NCBI GenBank assembly: GCA_013285915.1
Contig: JABDGS010000006.1
Coordinates: 1 to 64,000 of the forward strand
Source: Bacteroidota bacterium
GTDB lineage: Bacteria; Bacteroidota; Bacteroidia; Chitinophagales; Chitinophagaceae
Length of the DNA: 64,000 bases
Reading direction: 5' to 3'
The notes under the pieces are model-generated. The model had not been told where the DNA came from. It was given only the letters and a program-made list of their open reading frames with translations, and searched no databases. A program made the translations under genes and the position numbers. Below are positions 54,340 through 57,452 of this stretch, piece by piece. Position 1 is the stretch's first letter, and the number at the start of each line of letters is the position of its first letter.

Positions 54340-54369
54340 TTTGCACGTACGTTTTTAATCGTACCTTAG
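54340..54369 (+). promoter_or_regulatory. Promoter and likely operator of the blaI-M56 operon
   Basis: TTTG (54340-54343), 18-nt spacer, TACCTTAG (54362-54369), ending 4 nt before the ATG. Inside lies the inverted repeat GTACG (54347-54351), 8 nt, CGTAC (54360-54364), with ACGTACGT at its left end. The placement between -33 and -7 suits repression by the BlaI-type product of the first gene. Confidence 0.65.
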
Positions 54370-54373
54370 TGTC

Positions 54374-54769
54374 ATGAAATTGAATAAGCAGGATATTGGT
54401 AAAGATGCAGCACCTACCAAAAGTGAGCTGGAGGTTTTGCAGGTATTGTGGAAGCAAGGGCCGCAAACTGTTCGTTTTGTGCATGACGTATTAAACGGGC
54501 AAAAAGCTGAGGCCATACAATATACCTCAACCCTTAAGCTTATGCAGGTTATGACGGAAAAGGGCATGCTGCTGCGCGACGAAACCAATATGAAACATAT
54601 TTACAGGCCCGCACTTGAAGAAGATAAAACCAAAGGCGCTATGCTGGAGCGCTTTGTGGATAATATGTACGAGGGCTCGGTTAGTAATATGATGATGGCT
54701 TTATTAGGTAACGACAAAACAAGCCGTGAAGAACTGGAAAAAGTAAAAGCATTATTAAATAAATTGTAA
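54374..54769 (+). CDS. BlaI/MecI/CopY-family repressor
   Basis: 131 residues, full family length. Winged helix: TKSELEVLQVLWKQGPQTVR, then TSTLKLMQVMTEKGMLLRDE (recognition helix and wing), and a C-terminal dimerisation part (FVDNMYEGSVSNMMMALLG, SREELEKVKALLNKL). BlaI proteins are inactivated by cleavage through a BlaR1-type protease, and such a gene follows after 54 nt. Start at the ATG 4 nt after the -7 element. The likely binding site is the inverted repeat at 54347-54364. Confidence 0.95.
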   Translation: MKLNKQDIGKDAAPTKSELEVLQVLWKQGPQTVRFVHDVLNGQKAEAIQYTSTLKLMQVMTEKGMLLRDETNMKHIYRPALEEDKTKGAMLERFVDNMYEGSVSNMMMALLGNDKTSREELEKVKALLNKL

Positions 54770-54823
54770 CCTTTTAAGCAAACGCAGGTAATAATAAGTT
54801 TACCCTTACTAAAAGATTGTATT

Positions 54824-56386
54824 ATGCACCACGCCTTTTTAAATAGCATATTGGCAGGCAAAGCAGCAGAAGCGTTTTGCTGGATGCTGATACACTCCTT
54901 GTGGCAGGGGCTGCTGTTTACCATTATTACAGGTGTTGTACTTATGGTTACCAAAAAAAGTACAGCGGCATTACGGTATAATATAGTATGCGCACTTTTT
55001 ATGCTGTTTATTGCAACGTGCACGACAACTTTCATCTGGCAATTGAACAGCACTCTGGTACAAACCGACGGCCAGCAAGCAGCGGGTGCGTTACCAACGG
55101 AAAGTGTTCTGCAGGTATGGTTAAATAAGTTCAATGCCTATTTCTCAGCCAACTCCTCACTTGTTTTAATGGCCTGGATGCTTGTATTTGTTGCCAAATG
55201 TGTAAAAATGATGGCCGGTTTGGTGTACAGCCAGCGTGTGCGCCACCACAAAACACATAAGCCTGCGGAGTACTGGCAAAATAAAATAGCGGCACTTTGC
55301 AGCCAGTTACAGCTAAAGAAAACGGTGGTAATACTTGAGTCGGAAATTGTAAAGATACCGGTAGTTATAGGCCATTTAAAGCCCGTTATTTTTATACCCC
55401 TTGGCCTGTTAACCAGTTTGCCCGCAGGCGAAATTGAGGCGGTGCTGCTACACGAGTTGGCGCATATACGCCGCAACGATTACTTTATAAATATTATACA
55501 GGTAATGGCTGAAAATGTGTTCTTCTTTAACCCCGCGCTGCTATGGATGTCTTCAGTGATACGTGAAGAGCGGGAGAGTTGCTGTGATGACGTTGCGGTA
55601 GCCCAAACAAAAAGTAAAAAGCAGTTTATACAGGCACTTATAAGTTTTAAAGAGCATGCATTGCATACTAATAGCTATACCACTGCTTTTCCGGCAAAAA
55701 AGAACCAGCTTTTACAAAGGGTATCACGTATTATTAACGACCGTAATAAGACACTGAACGTGACGGAGAAAATATTTATTCTTTCAAGCTTTGTTTTGCT
55801 GGCGGGTTTATCAATAGCTGTTACAAACACTGGCTTTGCCGGAAAAATAGCTGCAGCAAAAACAAAAACAGTACAGCAACAGTTCGTGCTTTCGTTGCCC
55901 GCAGCTAAAATTGAGCTGACCTCTAAAACAACCTACAAATTGGATGATGTTAGCACTGCGGATAAGATTGCCTCCGGCACCGCACCAAGAACGCGCAAAC
56001 ATATTGTTTATGAAGAGTATAGTAAAGTGATAACCCAGGATGGCGTGAAGGTATTTGAGGAAGATTCAAAAAATAATGAAAAGGCTGCCTTGACAGAAAA
56101 ACAACAGGCTGATGCAGACAGGCTGCAAGCTGAAGAAAACCGTAAACAGGCAGAGATGGACAGGCAGCAGGCAGAGGCAGACAGGCTACAGGCGGTTAAA
56201 GACCAGGAACAGGCGAGGCTTGACAAGATACAAGCAGATAAAGACCGTCAGCAGGCCGAGCTTGACCGTCAACAAGCAGAAAACGACAGGATACAGGCTG
56301 AAAAAGAAAAAGGACAACCAGCAACAAACAATAAAATTTCTGTATCGCAAAACAACCACAACAAACATAACCCGCAGGTATTGTAA
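54824..56386 (+). CDS. M56 (BlaR1-like) membrane metalloprotease with C-terminal heptad repeats
   Basis: 520 residues. Membrane helices at the N-terminus (SLWQGLLFTIITGVVLMVTK, YNIVCALFMLFIATCTTTFI) and later (IFILSSFVLLAGLSIAVTNT) frame a cytoplasmic protease domain with HELAH at 210-214 and the ESCCDDVAV motif typical of M56. There is no penicillin-binding sensor domain. The outer part is instead about 85 residues followed by ten in-phase heptads of the form QAxxDRx (residues 428-497) and a His/Asn-rich end. Inference: it senses something other than beta-lactams, perhaps via a helix that pairs with the next gene's product, and then triggers loss of the BlaI-type repressor. Confidence 0.93.
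   Translation: MHHAFLNSILAGKAAEAFCWMLIHSLWQGLLFTIITGVVLMVTKKSTAALRYNIVCALFMLFIATCTTTFIWQLNSTLVQTDGQQAAGALPTESVLQVWLNKFNAYFSANSSLVLMAWMLVFVAKCVKMMAGLVYSQRVRHHKTHKPAEYWQNKIAALCSQLQLKKTVVILESEIVKIPVVIGHLKPVIFIPLGLLTSLPAGEIEAVLLHELAHIRRNDYFINIIQVMAENVFFFNPALLWMSSVIREERESCCDDVAVAQTKSKKQFIQALISFKEHALHTNSYTTAFPAKKNQLLQRVSRIINDRNKTLNVTEKIFILSSFVLLAGLSIAVTNTGFAGKIAAAKTKTVQQQFVLSLPAAKIELTSKTTYKLDDVSTADKIASGTAPRTRKHIVYEEYSKVITQDGVKVFEEDSKNNEKAALTEKQQADADRLQAEENRKQAEMDRQQAEADRLQAVKDQEQARLDKIQADKDRQQAELDRQQAENDRIQAEKEKGQPATNNKISVSQNNHNKHNPQVL
56105..56314 (+). repeat. Ten 21-bp coding repeats in the M56 gene
   Basis: Ten consecutive heptads starting with Gln-Ala, exactly 210 bp with no phase break. Each holds one Ala and mostly charged or polar residues (Glu, Asp, Arg, Lys, Gln). 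The DNA copies are varied, so selection on the protein, not recent expansion, keeps the period. Confidence 0.9.
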
Positions 56387-56510
56387 GGTGCGCACTTATA
56401 ATTTTTAGCGGCAGCAATTTTTATCCAACTAAAACCGGGCAATAGAAAACGATCACGATGCAGTGAAACAGGATGTTATTGCCCATAATGTAACCACAAA
56501 AACAAAAAAA

Positions 56511-57401
56511 ATGAAAACAACATTTTTAAAGCAAAGCATTGCAATATTGATAATAGCAGTGAGCGCATTATCAGCAAACGCACAAAAAAAACAAGGCGAC
56601 AAATTAGCTTATGAGTCGCGCAATACAAGCAGTACCTATATGTATTTTGATGACGACAGCACGGTAAACCCGCCGCAAACTACGGTTACTTATTGCGAAA
56701 ATCATATAAGGTACGAATTTACCTTATCCTCAGACAAGCTTACAGAATTGTACATAAATAATCATAAAATACCGGCTGATAGTTTTTATCTGTATAATGC
56801 CCTTGTAACTAAACTAAAAGAACAAATAAAAAGAGACAGGATACAAGCCGAGGAAGACCGTAAACAGGCGGCTTTAGACAGGGTACAGGCAGAAGAAGAC
56901 CGCAAACAGGCGGTGCGTGACCAGGCGCAGGCTGAGGAAGACCGCAAACAGGCAGAAAAAGACAGGCAGCAGGCTGAAGTTGAGAGGCAGGAGTCAGTAA
57001 AAGACCAGCAGCAGGCCGTTGAAGACCGTAAGCAGGCAGAGCGTGACAGGATGCAGGCAGACCAGGACAGGAAGCAGGCTGAACTTGACCGCCAGCAGGC
57101 AGTGCGTGACCAGGCACAGGCTGTTGAAGACCGCAAGCAAGCCGAGCTTGACCGCAAACAGGCCGAAGAAGACAGGAAGATAGCAGACAGCCTGGTAAGT
57201 GATATTATAGCCGAACATATTGTTGCTAATAAAGCAGGTATAAGAGAAGTTATATTAAACGAGGATGAGTTTATAGTTAACGGTAAACTGCAATCTGAGG
57301 AACTGCTTAAAAAATTCAAAGCAAAATATGTAAAGAAAGCTGGTTATAGCGTAAGGTATGGCGGCACAACTTCCAGCTATGGCATTTATATAAATAATTA
57401 G
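56511..57401 (+). CDS. Exported heptad-repeat protein, probable partner of the M56 protease
   Basis: About 296 residues. Signal peptide (ending SANAQ), an N-domain (about 24-110: YMYFDDDSTVNPPQTTVTYC, IRYEFTLSSDKLTELYIN), sixteen heptads QAxxDRx (residues 112-223) and a C-domain (ADSLVSDIIAEHIVANKAGI, LNEDEFIVNGKLQSEELLKK) that recalls the C-terminal part of proteins encoded beside other Bacteroidota M56 genes. It follows the M56 gene by 124 nt with no terminator between. The start at 56511 is chosen for its signal peptide; an ATG-less extension to 56463 was rejected. The role is unknown: structural or sensory partner in the periplasm is an inference. Confidence 0.85.
   Translation: MKTTFLKQSIAILIIAVSALSANAQKKQGDKLAYESRNTSSTYMYFDDDSTVNPPQTTVTYCENHIRYEFTLSSDKLTELYINNHKIPADSFYLYNALVTKLKEQIKRDRIQAEEDRKQAALDRVQAEEDRKQAVRDQAQAEEDRKQAEKDRQQAEVERQESVKDQQQAVEDRKQAERDRMQADQDRKQAELDRQQAVRDQAQAVEDRKQAELDRKQAEEDRKIADSLVSDIIAEHIVANKAGIREVILNEDEFIVNGKLQSEELLKKFKAKYVKKAGYSVRYGGTTSSYGIYINN
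56844..57179 (+). repeat. Sixteen 21-bp coding repeats in the heptad-repeat gene
   Basis: Exactly 336 bp of in-phase heptads, such as QAEEDRK, QAELDRQ and QAVRDQA; one unit is ESVKDQQ. Some units recur identically (QAEEDRK four times), and several are shared with the M56 gene (QAELDRQ). This points to past exchange or duplication between the two genes. Confidence 0.92.
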
Positions 57402-57422
57402 CGGCTAAGGGTGTTTGGTAAT

Positions 57423-57452
57423 AAAAGGCTTCTGCTAACTGCAGGGCCTTTT
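57423..57452 (+). terminator. Intrinsic terminator of the blaI-M56 operon
   Basis: AAAAGGC (57423-57429) pairs with GCCTTTT (57446-57452), with CTGC/GCAG continuing the stem inside, and a T-rich tail follows (ACCTTTTT). It begins 22 nt after the stop codon of the third gene. Confidence 0.8.

Follow-up and report, generated by a model that had tools for sequence, protein, structure and literature searches.

How might a BlaI-type repressor and its membrane protease be coupled to a signal when the protease carries no beta-lactam sensor domain, and what could a third gene in the same operon contribute? This question is raised by a three-gene run in a stretch of 64,000 nucleotides (hereafter the window; positions 1 to 64,000 of contig JABDGS010000006.1, assembly GCA_013285915.1) from a Bacteroidota bacterium of the Chitinophagaceae, whose assembly amounts to 4.26 Mb in 226 contigs and is 63% complete. 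The run encodes a BlaI-type repressor, an M56 (BlaR1-type) membrane zinc protease and an apparently exported third protein, which we call the partner; protease and partner both carry arrays of the heptad QAxxDRx. We consider it probable that these genes form a BlaI-M56 switch with a detached, helix-docked periplasmic sensor (or inhibitor) subunit encoded downstream. The proposal is built on the anatomy of the operon, the relation to relatives that hold the same domains in cis or in trans, the co-variation of the two arrays and a recurring operator, all of which are read directly from sequence.

The repressor gene (54374..54769, + strand, as are all genes and protein features given below) encodes 131 residues that match Pfam PF03965 Penicillinase_R (3.1e-24). 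The protease gene (54824..56386) encodes 520 residues and shows the features of the M56 family, namely a Peptidase_M56 domain (PF05569, 3.6e-30) with an HEXXH motif (HELAH, residues 210-214) and membrane helices on either side. It resembles Staphylococcus aureus BlaR1 in sequence (phmmer against 8exp, 4.4e-8) and in modelled fold (Foldseek against 8ext, 6.7e-7). Hydropathy peaks lie near residues 25-43, 54-72, 113-131 and 317-335, with extra peaks at 167-209 within the protease part, and together with the charge pattern they fit the BlaR1 topology, which would have the C-terminal tail face the periplasm. No beta-lactam sensor domain was found at the C-terminal end in Pfam or NCBIfam scans, where BlaR1 and MecR1 models cover the M56 part alone, partially and with scores under their own cut-offs. 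Neither of the two open reading frames (ORFs) flanking the operon, the sole neighbours scanned, matched a beta-lactamase or resistant penicillin-binding protein gene. In AlphaFold2 models, built with relatives' sequences as input, the membrane and protease part is followed by a disordered tether at about residues 345-411 and an isolated helix at 411-497. The tether follows membrane helix 4 (residues 345-410, 55856..56053; predicted local distance difference test score, pLDDT, <50 for 345-411). The helix (56054..56314) has a pLDDT of 92-96 over residues 431-490, dropping toward both ends, and contains ten QA heptads (residues 428-497) whose QA units keep an exact seven-residue spacing (residues 428-491), six of the ten being strictly QAxxDR.

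The partner gene (56511..57401; 296 residues) was recognised by its signal-like N terminus and its orthologues in relatives; its start is best placed at the ATG at 56511, with the GTG at 56463 in the ORF list as an upstream extension. A predicted signal peptide (residues 1-24, 56511..56582) comprises a hydrophobic segment at residues 10-24 and, by reading, A-N-A before Q25. The model (mean pLDDT 84) then shows an N-terminal domain (NTD) that is a four-stranded beta sheet (residues 43-82, 56637..56756), a continuous helix of 146 residues (residues 89-234, 56775..57212; block pLDDT 86-98) and a beta-beta-alpha C-terminal domain (CTD; residues 221-296, 57171..57398), which we label the 'VNG' domain. 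At 0.15 nm per residue the helix would be about 22 nm long. Its array has 16 units, of which 15 fit the pattern QAxx[DEN][RKQ] (12 strictly QAxxDR) and one is degenerate. With the whole partner as query nothing outstanding was found in the PDB (Foldseek best E 0.15; VIA best Z 6.9), and no Pfam or NCBIfam model for the CTD matched in the proteins scanned. When NTD and CTD were compared as a possible duplicated domain, their profiles aligned over 20 columns with an hhalign probability of 75.7, which is a short and weak match.

A preliminary description of this DNA had proposed a BlaI-M56 operon with heptads on both the protease and the third protein, which Pfam and the repeat listing confirm, and a protease without a beta-lactam sensor domain, which is borne out by the Pfam and NCBIfam scans. 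It had also suggested that the two helices associate outside the cell membrane. Their location there fits the M56 topology and the signal-like N terminus of the partner; their pairing we infer. Such repeats could in principle be commonplace in these genomes. When the window partner helix was searched against nine relative genomes holding the operon, all 19 matches fell inside the M56 tail or the partner gene, which excludes a chance match of repeats; this query is D-type and could miss N-type arrays, and in G421 it recovered the partner and not the M56 tail. A genome-wide bias toward such repeats is therefore not favoured.

An indication of what the partner may do comes from relatives in which its domains are part of the protease. 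Relatives were found by the M56 core alone, giving 80 named loci (the best 80 of at least 380 relatives) with 81 M56 rows; removal of three duplicates and four fragments under 400 residues left 74 full-length, distinct proteins. In 44 of the 74 the M56 tail bears the NTD and/or CTD in cis, with no same-strand partner gene within 3.5 kb downstream; the fullest form places NTD, a linker or long helix and CTD on the M56 chain, and in L077 one chain runs from M56 through NTD and a long QAxxDA helix to CTD. A further 18 are split, that is, the M56 protein lacks NTD and CTD and a partner gene lies downstream, in three cases (L025, L043 and L051) only beyond an extra gene. Two are mixed and ten show neither arrangement. 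All 18 split proteases have 5-17 heptads that fit [QE]A..[DNQHA], whereas 36/44 cis proteins have four or fewer; repeats absent from orthologous pairs, which would have spoken against the preliminary description, were thus met in none of the full-length named split loci. In a quick-search tree of 106 M56 cores, all 45 full-length split rows sit on one branch of 48 rows (Shimodaira-Hasegawa-like approximate likelihood ratio test, SH-aLRT, 98). This branch contains no cis row, its other three rows having neither arrangement (one is cut by a contig end). Therefore the split occurred once or nearly so, and the repeat types changed after it. Many of the 45 loci were chosen via a CTD match in a small ORF, so that their number is no measure of how frequent the split is. 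Of eight genomes with a split operon, six also hold a CTD in a much longer ORF, a cis copy by size. Since relatives carry these domains on the M56 chain itself, we read the third protein as a detached sensor module.

Some loci deserve separate mention. A serine hydrolase gene of the beta-lactamase family PF00144 stands between M56 and partner at L025:9710-11239, L023:10731-12152 and L194:2894-4408 (Pfam); by reading, similar genes occur in L043, L051 and between two partners in G773, and the gap in L181 is of the same size. In Sediminibacterium ginsengisoli (L033:8019-10273) the NTD is on the M56 chain and the CTD on the overlapping next ORF, which could be a frameshift or a split of another kind, while in Mucilaginibacter myungsuensis (L084:7231-10814) an M56 with CTD has small CTD-bearing proteins on either side. 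The M56 genes of L087 and L065, from records named Glaciecola amylolytica and Beijerinckiaceae, fall among Bacteroidota rows (that of L087 with Fluviicola, SH-aLRT 100), pointing to misnaming, contamination or transfer. The genome of L046, whose M56 is cut by a contig end, yielded just an uninformative 46-residue piece of CTD.

If partner and protease are matched components, their arrays should change together. We compared 49 protease-partner pairs and the 45 full-length split loci, the exclusion of loci with few units leaving 35, 42 or 39 in some tests. The two proteins usually agree in type, which in heptad order is D/Q in most Mucilaginibacter, D/R in Chitinophaga and in the window, N in L037 and L193, Q/R in L057, H/R or Q/R in L139, and A/R in L148. 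Presence of an N-type block in the M56 protein agrees with presence of an N-type partner in 45/45 loci (seven of them positive), position 5 (D or non-D) agrees in 41/42 and position 6 (R or non-R) in 33/35. Given M56-core distance the partial Mantel r is 0.851 (n = 42), a value that none of 2000 permutations reached. With tree-related data Mantel tests err on the lenient side; counting independent pairs, which is stricter, gives agreement in 3/3 for N, in 4.3/5 on average for position 6 and in 4/5 for position 5, with none in the opposite direction. By heptad position (n = 39) the co-variation is 0.93 at position 5, 0.87 at position 6 and 0.79 at position 1, and lowest (0.34) at position 7; we read positions 5, 6 and 1 as a putative contact face. 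Two sisters by M56 core differ in step: protease and partner are both D/Q in L027, and both D/R in L185. Both the repeats in orthologous pairs and the co-variation of their types thus support the earlier suggestion of a link between the two helices, and in this group of soil bacteria protease and partner helices change their repeat pattern between species as if a detached sensor were kept matched to its own protease.

Loci with two partners extend this correspondence. All five full-length M56 tails composed of a D-block followed by an N-block (L023, L024, L182, L190 and L191; the D-block of L190 has three units only) are followed by two partner genes, of which the first is N-type and the second D-type; in L023 the N-type gene is broken into two frames. 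For L028, whose tail is cut by a contig end and shows D- and N-blocks, two partner genes were expected beforehand; another contig of that genome carries the C-terminal end of one partner (repeat type not visible), a hydrolase-like gene and a D-type partner.

Such matching need not come from binding. Neighbouring arrays may exchange DNA, or move together horizontally, and concerted evolution or joint transfer of this kind would find ready material in M56 and partner genes that adjoin and are both repetitive. Heptad type is mostly common to whole clades, joint transfer of tail and partner is compatible with the tests, and in 6/49 pairs the longest shared DNA exceeds that of codon shuffles at p < 0.05, where 2-3 are expected, which speaks for exchange and against our proposal. 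However, the longest DNA common to tail and partner averages 16.4 nt compared with 14.8 nt in the codon shuffles, and 43/49 pairs are not below p 0.05; in L189, 22 residues are identical, yet the common DNA is 18 nt (null mean 17.2). Recent gene conversion is accordingly not favoured, and recent copying explains little. Moreover, in double loci the second partner agrees in type with its own block even though it lies 1.1 to 2.5 kb beyond M56. A tree built from partner NTD and CTD, without the helix, joins the six complete N-type partners in one clade (100/99), whereas N-block M56 cores are scattered in the M56-core tree, as expected if block and partner were co-lost several times. In the same partner tree L185 groups with its neighbour L023 (100/96) and not with the partner of its M56 sister L027; therefore its R-type was not imported from Chitinophaga. 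On balance we regard concerted evolution or joint transfer as unlikely. Returning to a docked partner, we tentatively suggest, as something a little short of an even chance, that the heptads act as an address code, in which each block of the M56 tail would recruit a sensor of the same type, one switch could read one or two exchangeable periplasmic sensors, and blocks and partners would be gained and lost together.

The operon is preceded by a probable BlaI operator, a perfect match to GTACG-N8-CGTAC (54347..54364) that starts 27 nt 5' of the BlaI start codon. A match with at most one mismatch is not rare by itself, since 42/100 shuffles of the window have one. Among relatives, at least 9 of the 10 operator bases occur in the 120 nt upstream of BlaI (starts taken as the first ATG) in 62/106, compared with <0.1% of 2120 shuffled upstreams, and at exactly -27 in 38 of these 62. 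The repressor hence combines a Penicillinase_R domain with a recurring palindrome upstream of its own gene, as in the BlaI/MecI family, DNA binding being predicted only. As the operator recurs upstream of BlaI genes, the switch is probably self-regulated. Elsewhere in this 63% complete assembly the exact operator recurs once, about 104 nt ahead of an ORF read as an oxidoreductase; a control pattern gave 8 matches per strand, and no inference on a regulon was drawn from such sites.

A number of observations weigh against a docked sensor. The independent pairs on starred branches are one-sided, but no sign test reaches 0.05. Position 6 is mismatched in L015 and L145 and position 5 in the double locus L191, the latter because double-locus partners were pooled for that test; the L192 partner has R, not Q, at position 1, and the QA pattern is lost from both proteins in L194. 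In L064, a frameshifted M56 with N and D units, a D-type partner alone was among the matches found; its fragments lie outside the 45-locus set and would count as a disagreement. An operator score of at least 9 is reached in only 19/45 split loci compared with 35/47 cis loci. Lastly, each heptad has one small non-polar residue (Ala), unlike a classic coiled-coil core, so that lone charged helices are possible. This leads to a further alternative, in which each protein has its own stiff, charged single helix to span the periplasm and their resemblance reflects a common physical need. Large hydrophobic residues are indeed scarce in the two helices (0.11 and 0.17), and AlphaFold2 predicts both to be isolated and straight, although single-chain models are not informative on association. 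The distance from NTD end to CTD start correlates with M56 tail length (0.68, single-partner loci), as spacers might; however, it spans 77 to 154 residues across 49 proteins (median 112), and two spacers leave unexplained the agreement at positions 5 and 6 and the pairing of D- and N-blocks with D- and N-type partners in one genome. We judge this explanation rather improbable. The same variation makes a fixed-length ruler unlikely despite the correlation, and argues against the ruler function that had been one of three suggested for the third protein.

Beyond these operons the CTD is widespread, occurring in small and large ORFs in 176/394 genomes of the window's family and in 95/351 genomes of the family of Mucilaginibacter kameinonensis. 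Two FecR anti-sigma proteins (L195:4768-5856 and L199:2993-4150) carry it at their C-terminal end. The window's own genome, which holds three M56 genes that by reading each adjoin a BlaI-like ORF, also encodes a stand-alone protein (L014:1114-1896, G000:C86) with an N-terminal hydrophobic segment, a CTD-like C-terminal end and no QA heptads; ORFs of similar size with weak CTD matches occur in many family members. A third alternative is that the partner acts as an effector: it would be a periplasmic protein under BlaI control, structural or associated with an enzyme, and M56 would do no more than anchor it. The partner gene lies within the operon behind the operator, and at several loci M56 and partner are separated by a gene for a PF00144 serine hydrolase, as such an effector might lead one to expect. 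Yet in many relatives the domains of the partner form one chain with M56, at the place where a sensor would be looked for, and FecR proteins carry the CTD as well. We therefore hold an effector role to be distinctly improbable.

We propose that, in the window's clade, the periplasmic sensor module was split off M56 and the protease retained a heptad helix on a flexible tether. The M56 and partner helices would pair in the periplasm, like with like, via positions 5, 6 and 1 of QAxxDRx, docking the partner on M56 as a detachable sensor (or inhibitor) subunit. Some envelope signal may alter the docked state, and the change could be relayed by membrane helix 4 to the cytosolic protease, which would cleave BlaI and turn on the operon with its probable BlaI operator in front. 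Of this scheme, we infer the binding of the partner, the cleavage of BlaI, and both the route of the signal and the direction of control. We know of no signal sensed by BlaI-M56 pairs of Bacteroidota. A presumed sensor that is a separate, matched protein can be deleted, swapped and purified, making the question of sensing directly testable; moreover, if the heptad code holds, these loci would offer a natural set of orthogonal helix pairs acting in the periplasm.

The nearest known systems are BlaR1-BlaI and MecR1-MecI, which likewise combine a repressor with a membrane M56 protease. In S. aureus BlaR1 sensing is done by the outer domain, and BlaI is a direct substrate of the protease; the BlaR1 homologue of Mycobacterium tuberculosis likewise has no counterpart of that sensor domain (PMC9834060). 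The system in the window differs from BlaR1 in that the outer module is a separate protein, which would dock by a helix. The mecR1-mecI-mecR2 locus similarly has three genes around a BlaI/MecI-type repressor, where MecR2 is an anti-repressor that binds MecI directly (PMC3406092). By contrast, the third protein of the window looks exported and has domains common to M56 tails; with its export-signal-like N terminus it would not be expected in the cytosol as a MecR2-type anti-repressor would. The accessible parts of these BlaR1 and mecR2 descriptions contain no exported, helix-docked partner (PMC9834060, PMC3406092). A limited literature search, mostly without subscription papers, found no published system of this arrangement among the titles listed. 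In the RseA/DegS sigma-E pathway, proteolysis is gated by the periplasmic protein RseB through its docking to a signalling protein of the membrane. RseB is thus a functional analogue of the proposed partner, although the protease is of another family and the pathway is not known to use heptad pairing. Lastly, two FecR anti-sigma proteins of Bacteroidota lack the M56 protease domain and the heptads, but bear the same CTD at their C-terminal end, so that this unnamed domain is common to two signalling families, M56 and FecR.

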